Of a stretch of 64,000 bases of DNA, positions 2,742 to 35,345 are shown one piece after another (position 1 is the stretch's first letter; every line of letters begins with the position of its first letter). Under the pieces are notes generated by a model. That model worked only from the letters and a program-made list of their open reading frames with translations. It did not search any database and had not been told where the DNA came from. Source of the DNA: Verrucomicrobiia bacterium (lineage in GTDB: Bacteria > Verrucomicrobiota > Verrucomicrobiia > Limisphaerales > CAIMTB01). The position numbers and the translations under genes are program-made. The DNA lies in contig JAHCBA010000007.1 of the NCBI GenBank assembly GCA_019634625.1, forward strand, positions 1 through 64,000, written 5' to 3'.

Positions 2742-4171
2742 TCAATTCGTGCCACGTCCACCCGACGGGGCCGCCTCTTCGTCGGCGGCGCCATCGGACT
2801 GGAGACCAAGGCGCTGCATGCGATAGCGCAGCGCGTGCCGGCTGATGCCGAGGGCCTCGGCGGCGCGGCCGAGGGTCCGATGGCGGTCGAGGGCGCGGGT
2901 GACGAGGTGGCGTTCGAAGTCGGCGAGAGCCTCTTCGAGGGGTCGATCGACGGGGGGATCGACCGGGACAGCCGGGGTGGCGGGCACCAGGCGGTTTTCG
3001 ACGGCGAAATCCGGAAGGCTGGCGGGCTGCACCTCGGTTTTGGATTCCAGGATCACGGCCCTCTCGATGGCGTTACGCAATTCGCGCACGTTACCGGGCC
3101 ATCGATGGCGGAGCAACGCTTGTTGCGCCGAAGGGGACAGGGTGCGGACGGATTTATTGAGGGCCGCGCTGTAGAGGTCCACGAAATGGCCGGCGAGCTG
3201 GAGGACATCCTCGCCCCGTTCACGGAGGGGCGGAGGGCGGAACTGGACCACGTTGAGGCGGTGAAAGAGGTCTTCGCGGAAGGCGCCTTCCCGGATGAGG
3301 GCGACGATGTCGCGGTTGGTGGCGGCGAGCACGCGGACATCGACGCGAAGTTCCTCGTTGCCGCCGACCCGGGTGAACGAGCCGTCCTCGAGGAAGCGGA
3401 GGAGCTTGGCCTGGAGCGAGCGGCTCATGTCGCCGATTTCGTCGAGGAACACCGTGCCTCCGTCGGCCTCCTCGACGCGGCCGCGTTTCTGGCGGACGGC
3501 GCCGGTGAAGGCGCCGCGTTCATGCCCGAAGAGTTCGCTCTCGAGGAGGGATTCGGGGATGGCCGCGCAGTTGATGCGGACGTAGGGGGCCTGGGCGCGG
3601 TCGCTCAGGCGGTGGAGGCAGCCGGCGATGAGTTCCTTGCCGGTACCGCTTTCGCCGAGGATGAGCACGGTGGCGCGGGTGGGGGCCACGGTGCGGATGA
3701 GCTGGCGAAGCTCCTGCATGCCCGGGGACCGGCCGATCAACTGGTCGAGGGAGAACCCGTGCGGGTCCCGCTGCCGCAGGGCGGTGTTCTCCCGGACCAG
3801 CCGGTGACGTTCGGCGCAGCGGGCGACGAGGTTGAGAAGTTCCTCCGGGGCGAACGGTTTGGCCAGGTAATCGAAGGCGCCGGAGCGGATCGCCTCGACC
3901 GCGAGACGGGGGGTGGCGTAGGCGGTGATCACGACCACCGGCACCTCGGGCCAGCGGGATCGCGCCTCCCGGAGCAGATCGTACCCGCTCATGCCGCCGA
4001 GGCGGGCGTCGGTGATCATCAGGAGCAGCTCGCGTTCCGCCAGCTCGGCAAGGGCCCGTTCCGCCGAATCCACGCAGACCACGGCATACCCCTCCGGGCG
4101 CAACACCTCCTCCAACGACGCCCGCATATTGGGCTCGTCGTCCACGACCAGGATGGGAGGCAGCGAGGGCA

Positions 4172-4172
<1 letters not shown>
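2742..4172 (-). CDS. Sigma-54-dependent response regulator (NtrC family)
   Basis: The 476-residue protein has the full three-part architecture. A receiver domain spans residues about 5-120, with acidic residues DDE near 11, phospho-acceptor D55 in MITDARL, and the conserved lysine in YLAKPF. An AAA+ sigma-54 activation domain spans about 145-375, with Walker A GESGTGKE, the sigma-54 contact loop GAFTGA, and the Walker B-type motif GGTVFLDEIGDM. A Fis-type helix-turn-helix lies near 430-460 (GRAAEALGISRHALRYRM). It overlaps the stop of the upstream sensor kinase by one base (TGATG), so the two are translationally coupled and form a cognate two-component system. Target promoters are not identifiable here. 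Confidence 0.95.
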
Positions 4173-5542
<1,370 letters not shown>

Positions 5543-5605
5543 CCGGAGCACAAGCCTTGCATCCGCCATGGCCGGGGGCAATCGGCATGCCAGGAGCCGG
5601 GCCAT

Positions 5606-5938
5606 CGGAGGGACGAGCTCCGCGAGTCCTCAACCCAATGCTCCACACCCTTTCCCCCCTCCCCGGGAACTCGTACTCAGCCCGAAGGGCGGTACTCGTA
5701 CTCGTCCTCGGACCCGCAGGCACACCCTTTTCGAGCGTCGCCTTGTGGCGGGTGCGATGGGTTCGATCGTGTTCGGACCTCCCGTTCCGCATGCGAACCG
5801 GGCAGGACGATTACGATTACGATTACGAGTACGATTACGGGTACGATTACGAGTACGGGACGAGTACGAGGCCTGCTGCGAAAGACTGAGGTGCGCTGGC
5901 AGGGCGGGGACGTGGGGGCCGGAGCCTGGGTCGGACCC
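5606..5938. repeat. Composite intergenic repeat, copy 1, with hexamer array B
   Basis: This block carries, in order, the module arm GGAGGGACGAGCTCCGCGAG (about 5608-5627), a segment ending in the GCCCGAAGGGC palindrome, a leader (about 5758-5808), hexamer array B at about 5810-5873 (GATTAC, GAGTAC and GGGTAC units), and a trailer with GACTGAGGTGCGC. About 155 bases before the leader and about 50 bases after the array recur almost exactly in the copy at 6148-6450, while the leaders and the arrays between them differ. No gene is supported in this block. Confidence 0.9.
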
Positions 5939-5940
5939 TG

Positions 5941-6018
5941 TTGGGTGTGCGCGCTTTAGCGCGCTTTAGCGTGTCGGGGCGGATTTGGGAGGCTCACGCT
6001 GAAGCGTGTACACCCAAC
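5941..6018. repeat. Inverted pair of GGTGTGCACGCTTTAGCGTG-type arms
   Basis: The left arm TTGGGTGTGCGCGCTTTAGC contains an extra internal GCGCGCTTTAGC duplication. The right arm reads ACGCTGAAGCGTGTACACCC. Each arm has its own inner palindrome (CACGCTTTAGCGTG type), and the two arms are inverted relative to each other, so a hairpin or cruciform is possible. The same pair is at 6464-6530 and in the tandem repeats at 26.7 kb; a single arm is at about 13564-13583. Confidence 0.85.
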
Positions 6019-6044
6019 GGACGCTCCGAGTTCATCACCCTCGC

Positions 6045-6147
6045 TTCACTCCGGACGGACGAGCTCCGCGAATCCGCATTCCATCGCTCCCCTCCCCTGC
6101 GGCCTCGTGGAACTCGGCCCTCCGATTTCACCACCCTGCTTCACCTT
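6045..6147. repeat. Dispersed module with CCCTCCGA/TCGGAGGG hairpin
   Basis: This is a copy of the dispersed module, with GACGAGCTCCGCGAATCC, GCGGCCTCGTGGAACTCGGC, and CCCTCCGA separated by about 22 bases from TCGGAGGG. The hairpin loop (TTTCACCACCCTGCTTCACC) is the reverse-complement counterpart of the loop in the module copy at 17.8 kb. It runs directly into composite repeat copy 2. Confidence 0.8.
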
Positions 6148-6460
6148 TCGGAGGGACGAGCTCCGCGAGTCCTCAACCCAATGCTCCACACCCTTTCCCC
6201 CCTCCCCGGGAATTCGTACTCAGCCCGAAGGGCGGTACTCGCACTCGTCCTCGGACCCGCAGGCACACCCTTTTCGAGCGTCGCCTTGTGGCGGGTGCGA
6301 TGGGCTTGATCATTCTCGAAGCTCCAATTCAGCGTGGGAACTGGGTAGGGGAATCACGATTAAGATTAAGATTAAGATTAAGATTACGAGGCCTGCTGCG
6401 AAAGACTGAGGTGCGCTGGCAGGGCGGGGACGTGGGGGGGGGCAGAGGCTGGGTCGGACT
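6148..6460. repeat. Composite intergenic repeat, copy 2, with hexamer array C
   Basis: About 155 bases are nearly identical to copy 1 (module arm, then the GCCCGAAGGGC palindrome segment). Then comes a diverged leader ending GGGAACTGGGTAGGGG, a short array C of GATTAA units (about 6355-6388, five to six units), and the same trailer, CTGCTGCGAAAGACTGAGG. The hexamer type differs from copy 1 although both flanks match, so the array seems to be replaced or homogenised independently of its flanks. Confidence 0.9.
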
Positions 6461-6463
6461 CTG

Positions 6464-6530
6464 TTGGGTGTGCACGCTTTAGCGTGTCGGGGCGGATTTG
6501 GGAGGCTTACGCTGAAGCGTGTACACCCAA
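6464..6530. repeat. Second inverted arm pair (CACGCTTTAGCGTG type)
   Basis: The arms TTGGGTGTGCACGCTTTAGC and ACGCTGAAGCGTGTACACCC face each other across about 20 bases. The sequence is close to the pair at 5941-6018, without that copy's extra internal duplication. The bases from 6531 to 6601 hold a decayed module fragment and no gene. Confidence 0.85.
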
Positions 6531-6601
6531 CGGACGCTCCGATTTCACCACCCTCACTTCACTCCGCGAGTTCTCAATCCATGGCACCCCTTCCTCGCCC
6601 C

Positions 6602-7150
6602 TCACGCCAGAATCGCGGCCACCCGGGCCACGATTCGATCGACGTCGATCATGCGTCCCACGCCCTCGTATCCGCAGGAGAGAAGGCCTTCGGCCGGACC
6701 CAGGAACTCGACGCCACGCGCGGCCAGCGTGGCGACGTGTCCCTGGGTCGCCGGGTGCTGCCACATCTTGCCGTTCATGGCCGGCGCCACCAGGACCGGC
6801 ACCGCGGGGTCGAGGGCCAGCGCAAGGCTGCTCAGGGCGTCATCGGCCAGGCCCAGCGCCAGCCGGGCCAGCGTGTGCGCCGTGGCCGGGGCGACCAGGA
6901 GCAGGTCCGCCTCGTCGGCCAGCGCGATGTGGCGCGGGCGCCAGCCTTCGTCCTCGTCGTAGAGGCCGGTCACGACCGGGTGACGCGACAGGGTTCGGAA
7001 GGGGACGGGCGTCACGAAGCGTTGCGCCTCGGCGGTCATGACGACATGGACGGCGTGGCCGTTGCGGGTGAGCTGGCTGGCCAGGTCCACGGCCTTGTGG
7101 GCGGCGATGGATCCGGTCACCCCAAGGACGATGTTGGCGGGGCGATTCAC
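6602..7150 (-). CDS. coaC: Phosphopantothenoylcysteine decarboxylase domain protein
   Basis: The 182-residue flavoprotein matches the CoaC half of bifunctional CoaBC, which decarboxylates 4'-phosphopantothenoylcysteine in coenzyme A synthesis. Visible motifs are the N-terminal GVTGSIAAHKA, H74 in RHIALADEADL, the PAMN motif at 123-126, and the substrate-lid motif LLSCGYEGVGRM with catalytic C159. It ends after the decarboxylase domain, so no synthetase (CoaB) half is fused; a separate CoaB would be expected elsewhere. It starts with GTG inside a GTGA overlap with the gmk stop, so it is translationally coupled in a yicC-gmk-coaC operon. Other members of the flavoprotein family (UbiX, EpiD) fit the PAMN and cysteine motifs less well. 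Confidence 0.9.
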   Translation of the reverse strand: MNRPANIVLGVTGSIAAHKAVDLASQLTRNGHAVHVVMTAEAQRFVTPVPFRTLSRHPVVTGLYDEDEGWRPRHIALADEADLLLVAPATAHTLARLALGLADDALSSLALALDPAVPVLVAPAMNGKMWQHPATQGHVATLAARGVEFLGPAEGLLSCGYEGVGRMIDVDRIVARVAAILA

Positions 7151-8812: not shown

Positions 8813-11800
8813 ATGATCTTCCCGCTGGTTGCCGCGCCACCCGTGGCGGTTCGAATCGCCCGCGCGACCGTGGCGTGTGTCTGCCTCGCCGGGCTGTTGC
8901 TGACCGGCTGCGGCCGTTCCCAACGGTCCATCGAGGATGAGTTCCAGCGCTTGTCGCGGCAGGGACAGGCGTTCTACGAATCCGGCGAACCGGACCGGGC
9001 GGTCGAGGTGTTCCGGCAGGCGGCCGCCCTGCAACCGGTCCATCCCGACGCCCGCCAGAACCTCGCCAACGCCCTGCTCCGCGCCAACGATCCGGCCGCC
9101 GCCGCCGCTGAAGCTCGGGAACTGATCCGCCTCAACCAGAGTCTGGGGGCAGCCCATTACCTGCTGGGCGCCGCCCTCCTGCGCCAGGGACTGGCGGAGG
9201 CGGCCCTGACCGAACTGCAGACGGCCAAGGATTACGACCACACCGTCAACGCCGTAAGCTACCTCCTGGGGCGCGCCTACCAGGAGCTGGGGCAGTTCGA
9301 GGAGGCGGCGGAGTTGTTTGAGGAGGTGATCCAATTCGAGGCGGACCACCCCTCGGCCCACTACAATCTCAGCCAGGTCCTGACCCGGCTGGACCGTGCC
9401 GACGAGGCCGCCCGGGCGCTCGATAGCCACCGCACCCTCCTTGCCCAGCGCGCCGGCGCCACCATCGACCAGTCCACGGTCGAGGCGTGCGAGTACACGC
9501 AGATCCGCGCCCCGTTCCGGCTCGACCAGCCCGACGGCCGGGGGGTGGCGGTCACCTTCGTCGATGTCACCGCGGAATTCCTCGGTGACGACGCCGCGCG
9601 GTTCGCCGCCCCGCTGGCCGTCCTCGACATCAACCACCGCGGCACCAACGACCTGTTCGTGCGCGACGGCGACGCGCAGTTCCGGCTGCTCCGGAATGTC
9701 GGGTCCCGTTTCGAACCCGAGGCCGGCGCGGTGACCGTCACGGCGGGGGCGCGGTACTCGCGGGTCCTGGTGGGCGATCTCAACCGGGACCGTTACGAGG
9801 ACATTGTCATTCTGGGCGATGGCGGACTGCACGCGCTGCGGCTGGCCACCAACGGGACCATGACTGACGTCACCGCGTTCTCGAACCTGCGCGATCTGCC
9901 GGCGGTGGACGGACTGCTCACGGACCTGGACTTCACGGGCAACCTCGATCTGGTGCTGGTCACACCCGGTTCCCGATCCCTCCAGGTCTGGCGCAACCTC
10001 GGCAACATGTACTTCACCAACGCCACGGCAGCCTCCGGGTTTCCGACGGACGCCACGGATGTCACCGCGCTGATCGCCGACGACTGGAACGGCGACGAAA
10101 TGAACGACTACTTCCTGGTCCGCGCCGGGGCGCCCCCGACGCTGGTGGCCCAGCAACGGGGCGGTCCGCTCGCCCCGGCGCCCCAACCACCGGAATGGCC
10201 TGCGGCCTCGGTCCTTGCCGTGGGCGACCTCAACAACGATCTCCGCAACGATCTGGTGATGGCCGAGGGCGACCGCCTCACCATCCTGTTCAACGGGTTC
10301 ACCGACCCGTTGATCCTGCCGCTCGGCGGGGCGCGCGTCCGGTCGCTGCTGCTGGTGGATTACGACAACGACGGATGGCTCGACGTGATGGCGGCGACCG
10401 ACGTCGGGCTGAAGGCCTGGCGCAACCTGGGCCAGGCCGGATTCCGCGAGACCACCTCGGCCCTGGGACTGGCGCGGGGGGTTGACCGGCCCGTTGCGGC
10501 CCTGGTGGCCGCCGATTTCGACAACGATGGCGACACCGACCTGGTCCTGGCCCTCGAAGGGGGTGGCCTGCGGGTGCTCCGGAACCAGGGCGGCAACGCC
10601 AACCGGCAGCTCAAACTGCGCCTCCTGGGAACCCGATCGAACCCGAGCGGGCTGGGCATCCGCATCGAACTCACCTCCGGGAACTGGCGCGCCCTGCGGA
10701 CCGTTCACCAGTTGCCGATCGAAATCGGCGTCGGGCGCCATGAGAAGATCGACACCCTCAATGTCCGCTGGTTCGACACGCTCAGCACCGACGTGGATAC
10801 GCCGGTGATCGCCGGCGAACAGCTCGCCCTTATCGAACTCATCCGGCCCACGGGTTCCTGTCCGTATCTGTACCGGTGGGACGGCACCCGGTTCGCCTTT
10901 GTCACCGACCTCCTGGGCGCCGCGCCGCTGGGGTTGCCGGTCGCCCCGGGACGCCTGATCGAGGCCAATCCCGAGGAACTGGTCCGGGTGGGCGACGATT
11001 CAAACTTCCGCCCCCTGGACGGATCGTACGTGCTGCAGATCACCGAGGAACTGCGCGAAGTCCTGTACCTCGATACCGCGCAGTTGTGGGTGGTCGATCA
11101 TCCCGCGGACACCGAGGTCCATCCCCGCGACAAGCTCGTTCCCGGGCGCCCGTTCCCGCCGTCCGAACCGGTCCTGCTCCACCGCCCCGTACCGCTGCGG
11201 CAGGCCCACGACCTTGATGGGGTGGACGTGACGGAAGCGCTGGTGGTCGAGGATGGGCACATGGTTTCGCCCCGGCAATTGCGGCCCCCGCAGCAGCGCG
11301 GGTACGCCGAACCCCACGGTGTCGTGCTGGACTTCGGCCCGCTGGAGGTCGCCCGTCCGTTGACGCTGGTTCTCAACGGCTGGCTGCGGTTTGGCGGTGG
11401 CATGGCCAACATCGCCGCCTCCCGCGATCCGGAGATCCCCTTCCCCTTCCCCCGGCTCGAGGTGGAACACGGCACGGCCTGGGAACCCGTCGACGTCGTG
11501 GTGGGCGCCCCGTGCGGCAAGACCAAGACCATCCTTGTCGAACTCGATGGACTTCTGCCGCCCGGCGCCCGCCGGCTGCGCCTGACCACCGCCTTCGAGA
11601 TCCACTGGGATCGCATCGCCCTCCTCGAAAGGGTCCGCTCGGAGGAACCCGGCATGCCTTGGACCCTCACCCGCCTGGCGCCCGATCGCACCGATCTGCA
11701 TTGGCGGGGGTATTCCGAATTCGAGGATCGCCCGTGGACCCAACCGCTCACCCCGGACTACGCCCGGGTTCGGTCCTGGCCGGACTGGCGGATCACGCCC

Positions 11801-26555: not shown

Positions 26556-26674
26556 ACGTCCTCCCGGTTCGATCACGACTCCATCCAATCACCGAACCGG
26601 CGGAAAGCCAAGGGGGATACCGGGCGGGGGCAAGGGGGGGGCGCATCTCAAGCTTCCTGGAACCTGCCCAAGCC

Positions 26675-26940
26675 ACCCCGACACGCTAAGGCGTGTACAC
26701 CCAACGAAGTCCGGTCACCCCTGTGCCCCCACCGTCCCCGCCCCGCCAGGACGGCTGGGTGTGCACGCTTCAGCGTGAGCCTCTTATTCCACCCCGACAC
26801 GCTAAAGCGTGTACACCCAACGAAGTCCGGTCACTCCTGTGCCCCCACCGTCCCCGCCCCGCCAGGACGGCTGGGTGTGCACGCTTCAGCGTGAGCCTCC
26901 TATTTCACCCCGACACGCTAAAGCGTGTACACCCAACGAA
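26675..26940. repeat. 116-bp tandem repeat carrying inverted CACGCTAAAGCGTG arms
   Basis: Two full units with a 116-base period begin at 26675 and 26791, and a third, truncated unit begins at 26907. Each unit holds an ACACGCTAAAGCGTGTACAC arm, a conserved spacer, and the inverted arm GGGTGTGCACGCTTCAGCGT. The units differ at only a few bases. This shows the arm pair can be amplified in tandem. Confidence 0.93.
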
Positions 26941-26974
26941 GATCGACCACCCCCGGTGCCCCCACGTCCCCACG

Positions 26975-27270
26975 ATGGGTTCGCTCTTGTTCGGACCATG
27001 CCATTCCGCGTGGGAACTGGGGAGGGCGATTACGAGTACGATTACGAGTACGAGTACGAGTACGGGTGCGAGGGCACTTGAAAGAAGGTGGGATGCGGCC
27101 GAGGGGCGGCCGTGCATCCCGGAGTTGGGGTAGAGGCGCGAGCTTCGCGAAGCATCGCCTCGGAGGGCCGGGTTCCACGAGGCCGCAACGATGGGGTGCG
27201 TTGGGATGAGGACTCGCGGAGCTCGTCCCTCCGATCTGCTGCCTCCTCACCGACAACCTGGGGATGCGGC
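26975..27270. repeat. Composite element with hexamer array E and a full dispersed module
   Basis: The leader at about 26978-27026 (GATGGGTTCGCTCTTGTTCG ... GTGGGAACTGGGGAGGG) matches the leader of array B at 5.76 kb. Array E (about 27028-27066) has GATTAC and GAGTAC units. A module follows from about 27112 to 27268, opening GTGCATCCCGGAGTTG and closing CAACCTGGGGATGC in inverted relation, with GGTTCCACGAGGCCGCAACG and GACTCGCGGAGCTCGTCCCT inside. The nucleotidyltransferase-like gene begins only about 20 bases after it. Confidence 0.88.

Positions 27271-34865: not shown

Positions 34866-35345
<480 letters not shown>

Follow-up and report, generated by a model that had tools for sequence, protein, structure and literature searches.

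Exchange of leader and hexamer array between near-identical flanks in a family of intergenic MITE-like elements, likely derivatives of an IVP-encoding element, in a Verrucomicrobiia bacterium

The stretch of DNA that we analyzed (the window; 64,000 nucleotides) comprises positions 1-64000 of contig C7 of genome G000, whose assembly amounts to 6.74 Mb in 88 contigs. A 1 kb intergenic gap in this window is occupied by two tandem composite copies, which are situated at positions 5606-5938 (copy 1) and 6148-6460 (copy 2) and were compared by pairwise alignment. Beside the copy pair lie two ORFs on the minus strand (4172-5605 and 6602-7150), which, judging by inspection, we take to be a sensor-kinase-like and a CoaBC-like gene, respectively. 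The parts of both copies and of a third relic in the window are compiled in Table 1. In addition, a 116-base tandem repeat with a C palindrome inside is present at 26673-26971, and positions 35021-35231 hold a long GAGCAT/GAGCAC array together with a core-like motif, in an order that is reversed with respect to the other copies. An Rfam search of the window yielded zero matches, and no rRNA match was found in it either.

Table 1. Sequence features of the two tandem copies and of a third relic (window coordinates)
Feature	Position	Strand	Remark
Copy 1, REP-like D module (GGACGAGCTCCGCGAGTCC)	5606..5660	+	occupies the left-terminal-repeat position of some other copies
Copy 1, left hexamer arm in inverse orientation, CTCGTACTC...CTCGTCCTCG	5670..5711	+	
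Copy 1, GCCC-GAA-GGGC hairpin inside left hexamer arm	5680-5690		
Copy 1, leader; probably decayed 3' end of a 23S_rRNA_IVP (PF05635) CDS	5734..5808	+	consensus leader
Copy 1, right hexamer arm (GATTAC/GAGTAC/GGGTAC array)	5809..5868	+	
Copy 1, right terminal repeat (TGCTGCGAAAGACTGAGGTGCGC)	5874..5896	+	
C module between the copies; long imperfect palindrome GTTGGGTGTGC...ACACCCAAC	5940..6018	+	z -4.6
Copy 2, left hexamer arm with hairpin	6213..6254	+	
Copy 2, leader of a second type (36/38 to L038)	6277..6357	+	breakpoint ~6304
Copy 2, right hexamer arm (GATTAA x4, GATTAC)	6358..6387	+	
Copy 2, right terminal repeat	6394..6416	+	same as in copy 1
Copy 2, C module palindrome	6463..6531	+	
Third relic: leader (26974-27026) and GATTAC/GAGTAC array (27028-27063)	26974..27063	+	

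The left blocks of the two copies differ by 2 mismatches in about 157 bp (at 5670/6213 and 5699/6242), and 51 of 51 bp to the right of the arrays are the same (block B), in agreement with the near-identical flanks of about 155 and about 50 bases that had been described in the initial annotation of this DNA. Beyond the 51-bp block, there is a poly-G indel followed by dispersed differences, and the C modules of the two copies are not identical to each other. That the differences between the blocks are confined to leader and array, and that adjacent copies carry different hexamers, was likewise borne out: the leaders agree at 27 of 38 positions, while the arrays, which count 8 and 5 units (lengths that may be collapsed in a draft assembly), are 7 unit edits apart and consist of GATTAC/GAGTAC/GGGTAC units in copy 1 and of GATTAA units in copy 2. 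The mismatch count in the leader differs strongly from that in the left flank (Fisher p = 5e-9). Because the breakpoint between the shared left block and the diverged part lies directly behind ...GCGATGGG, the exchanged segment includes the leader and not the array alone.

A BLAST search with the copy-pair region identified 93 places in the source genome, and 48 left blocks, 54 leaders and 66 core motifs were counted in those stretches of this genome that were fetched, to which all family counts refer. The copies are intergenic, apart from weak and probably spurious ORFs that run over the repeats according to a simple, approximate codon-usage gene finder. The family is thus dispersed, multi-copy and non-coding in the manner of MITEs. 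Its matches in four congeners are short and partial only, and a search for phages, plasmids or viral contigs carrying the element gave no match. A regulatory role deduced from position was rejected, since the copies have no orientation bias relative to their neighboring genes. The two window copies are likely to be tandem representatives of a species-specific family of short MITE-like elements that are dispersed over intergenic sites.

The origin of these elements can be approached through their arrays. GATTAC-type arrays occur in 11 of 293 genomes of the order, and in several of the array-bearing genomes, as well as at locus L088 from the window's genus, the array lies directly 3' of a gene that ends in ...SMLVALIKSNSDYRLHE or similar. 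This gene encodes a 23S_rRNA_IVP protein (PF05635, S23 four-helix bundle). Armed relatives with an IVP ORF are L088, L161 and L195; in the first two, the intact IVP gene (PF05635 E 9e-19 and 7e-18) is placed between hexamer arms in inverse orientation. Elements with array arms that are bounded by terminal inverted repeats (TIRs) were found at L160 (322 bp), L166 (352 bp) and L241 (226 bp), the former two with the ends GCGCATCTCAGATTTTTC...GAAAAATCTGAGATGCGC; these two run from the left arm through the IVP start, an internal deletion and the IVP end to the right arm. The right block of the window copies terminates in a related TIR (AAAAGTCTGAGATGCGC), and the right-block consensus of the family, GCAAAAGTCTGAGATGCGC, resembles the right TIR of the L160/L166-type elements (0 of 2000 shuffles). 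By sequence resemblance, this right terminal repeat is hence common to the family and to TIR-bounded IVP derivatives of other genera.

Clear terminal inverted repeats are present in L160, L166, L241 and three copies of the source genome, and the window copies possess the right one only; a clear target site duplication was found at none of L160, L166, L241 and L029. Three loci of the source genome (L024, L028, L029) combine a left terminal repeat, an array and a right repeat without a D module, and most copies of this genome have no recognizable left terminal repeat. A complete copy would have, from left to right, one terminal repeat (GCGCATCYCAG), an inversely oriented left hexamer arm (GTACTC...), a spacer whose end is formed by the leader, the array as right hexamer arm, and the other terminal repeat (...CTGAGATGCGC).

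The array is accordingly best read as the right arm of a former IVP element. That the leader is the decayed 3' coding end of the IVP gene is the weakest step of this reading and is no more than probable. Aligned to the 3' coding end of the L088 IVP gene, the consensus leader scores 42 (reached in 0 of 1000 shuffles and in 0 of 2500 segments taken from the 64 kb), and its score against L156 is 38. Individual leaders score weakly against the IVP end; for window copy 2 the scores mostly did not exceed chance, and testing the leader as an IVP tail with a protein profile gave a negative result. As the window copies contain no S23/23S_rRNA_IVP ORF, we refer to the family as a derivative of the IVP element and not as a member of it. 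Derivation of the family from an IVP element is likely on these grounds, and the family as a whole is probably an ORF-less, MITE-like derivative of a mobile element that encoded an IVP protein between inverted short-tandem-repeat arms. Mobility and function of this element are presumed.

The usual intergenic repeats of bacteria are REPINs (PMC3116915) and tagged REPs (PMC3733652), and the family is similar to REP/BIME/REPIN sequences in being intergenic, species-specific and built from mosaic modules in tandem clusters. Its leader-array units differ from these in that no link to a Y1 transposase was found and in that a tagged stem is without support. An ordinary mosaic family of the REP/BIME type that picked up a chance microsatellite, with the leader as a REP-like palindrome and a coincidental resemblance to IVP, would account for the REP-like D and palindromic C modules that adjoin the copies, for one inverted leader doublet (L037), and for the Y1 transposase matches, numbering about 25-30, that the source genome contains, among them the L071 gene between inverted D modules. 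We nevertheless regard this explanation as unlikely, as leader and array were not found beside Y1 genes, the leader stem exhibits no covariation and a fold no better than that of shuffles, and the right block resembles the terminal repeat of IVP derivatives from other families. Leader and array are absent beside 20 Y1 loci, near some of which just D or A fragments occur; these flanks do not support RAYT/Y1 as the mobilizer of the leader-array unit, and this candidate was discarded. The leader as a structured hairpin was discarded as well, given covariation not beyond that of shuffles and the lack of a low-energy fold.

Among the Y1_Tnp (PF01797) matches of G000 (e.g., L061-L076), many are proteins of about 330 aa with about 90-96% identity to each other, and several lie at contig ends; this set is an expanded IS200-like/RAYT-like family. 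The inverted REP-like D modules that bracket the L071 transposase gene are located at 2797-2871 and 4100-4173, the D module is arranged in tandem with a 97-base period at L013:6488-8133 (G000:C31), and at L037:295-408 two leader types are inverted to each other like a REPIN doublet.

The left arm of the family contains a core, GTACTCA(GCCC GNA GGGC)GGTACTC, the distribution of which is patchy. The degenerate core motif is present 79 times in the source genome and 79 times in G263 (from another family; its coordinates match those of MAG Ja1_bin-3224), and it is absent from the other genomes among 320 of the order and among 387 of a phylum sample. A MAG labeled Kuenenia yielded three copies, and a Planctomycetaceae MAG a single one; the exact motif at L108, L111 and L147, in MAGs with these two labels, reflects either horizontal spread or mis-binning. 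This distribution suggests horizontal arrival of the motif followed by its amplification; it may also have resulted from convergence or binning error. Complementary arms that fold well (z about -4) are present in two copies of G263. The arms of the relics in the source genome do not co-vary (p 0.42) and have not kept their pairing, which rules them out as a co-evolving stem there. The triloop of the core is GAA in 55, GGA in 4, GCA in 3 and GTA in 2 cases in the source genome; a GNA triloop is suggestive, and in other genomes the sequences were preselected for it through the search pattern. In another repeat context, the core hairpin motif recurs about every 188 bases at L013 (1200-1611, 2565, 10381-10943).

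PF05635 was found in 225 of 320 genomes of the order and in 297 of 387 genomes of the phylum sample. Thirty-eight PF05635 loci, namely the highly ranked ones of the order and those of the source genome, were inspected for inverted flanks. Inverted short-tandem-repeat arms were present at 17 of these 38 loci, with 0.54 expected when flanks were paired across loci, and at 0 of 155 control genes; the loci are partly non-independent, since L212 shares its arms with L227, and L279 with L285. Most arms consist of 6-8-mer tandem repeats, and the two arms of a locus are identical in L212 (34/34) and in L232 (33/33). In a sample of IVP loci from across the phylum, 6 of 30 IVP loci have inverted arms (0.34 expected). 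Direct flank similarity is raised too at some IVP loci, two of which are neighboring tandem copies (L196, L197), and none of 20 IVP loci examined contains rRNA. Other IVP genes of the source genome, at L193, L197 and L199, are furnished with differing heptamer arms (CGGAGGA, AGCAGAA and CCTGAGA).

In a limited literature search, we found no description of free-standing IVP genes with short-tandem-repeat arms. In Coxiella burnetii, the intervening sequence (IVS) of the 23S rRNA holds an S23p/IVP ORF between terminal inverted repeats, and heptamer tandem repeats, whose number is strain-dependent, adjoin the ORF (PMC4990558). The armed relatives share with this IVS the ORF for a four-helix bundle of the S23/IVP type, the inverted repeats and the short tandem repeats. 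Unlike the IVS, the elements studied here lie between protein genes and not in 23S rRNA, each element has its own tandem arrays of 6-8-mers as arms, and the ORF has been lost from the window copies. We tentatively propose that the free-standing IVP (S23) genes of Verrucomicrobiota might form a large mobile class, whose inverted short-tandem-repeat arms match within an element, differ between elements and could serve as a hairpin substrate for movement or processing; the rRNA IVS would then be its rRNA-inserted branch, and the window copies its ORF-less satellites.

Two further types of repeats invite comparison. The mini-me/DINE-1 sequences of Drosophila are miniature elements with internal microsatellites (PMC2374699); like these, the family is short and non-coding with conserved ends and variable internal repeats, but it is bacterial, has other termini, and its arms flank a former IVP ORF on both sides. 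Dispersed microsatellite families of prokaryotes place hexamer or heptamer arrays at several positions per genome (PMC6749651), as is the case here, although in our family the element ends form a constant frame around each array.

For an assessment of array evolution, 44 paralogous copies within the one genome were each divided into leader, array and the two blocks that lie to the left and right of these. The nearest neighbor by left block has the same dominant hexamer in 13 of 44 cases (13.8 expected), and in copy pairs with at least 95% left-block identity the dominant hexamer is the same in 25%, compared with 31% for all pairs. Hence, the array is decoupled from its flanks, and the rapid turnover of arrays relative to flanks that the initial annotation had surmised is upheld among these paralogs. 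The nearest neighbor by leader has the same dominant hexamer in 20 of 44 cases (p 0.05). Adjacent units within arrays are identical in 175 of 268 instances, versus 126 +/- 6 after shuffling, and repeats of a higher order also occur, for example (GAGCAA.GATTAA)n; such unit clustering and higher-order repetition is the pattern that slippage would give.

The second surmise, replacement of the array, finds its counterpart in the mosaic leader: in the window the leader was swapped along with the array, and the nearest relatives of the two leaders reside at different loci. The leader of copy 1 matches L037:3801 at 37 of 38 positions, and that of copy 2 matches L038 at 36 of 38; L038 has a different right flank, and its array is also mostly GATTAA. 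In the tandem pair at L012, by contrast, the leaders agree at 38 of 38 positions and the arrays consist of GAGCAC x8 versus GATTAC x4 plus GAGTAC, so that leader and array are able to change separately. The comparison of these sequences supports the view that leader and array were exchanged together in the window pair and that both turnover and replacement are at work. Arrays would turn over by slippage, through which units are gained, lost and locally spread, and a leader-plus-array segment would occasionally be swapped with that of another family copy via the conserved flanks. Tandem duplication or homogenization may have generated the near-identical flanks in the window, after which one copy would have received the leader and array of another subtype. 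Slippage and gene conversion are the molecular steps that we infer.

Hypermutation of the array alone, by which the copies would have diverged in place via slippage and point mutation without any exchange of leader and array, is very improbable for the window pair. At other loci of the family, arrays commonly turn over on their own, as in L012 with its identical leaders, but the non-repetitive leader of the window pair has diverged as well, against the 2 mismatches of the left flanks, and the copy 2 leader has its close match at another locus. Even less probable is an assembly artefact that joined short reads of one copy onto the flanks of another: the assembly is fragmented and such repeats are difficult to assemble, yet an equal pattern recurs in other tandem copies and loci on many separate contigs, and the C modules of the window copies differ too.

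How rRNA intervening sequences originated is unsettled, and no function is known for IVP/S23 proteins (PMC4990558). Should IVP genes travel phylum-wide in elements with short-tandem-repeat arms, this would provide a lead on the role of the protein and on its mode of movement. The family itself offers a natural bacterial system in which microsatellite change can be followed relative to flanks that stay fixed.
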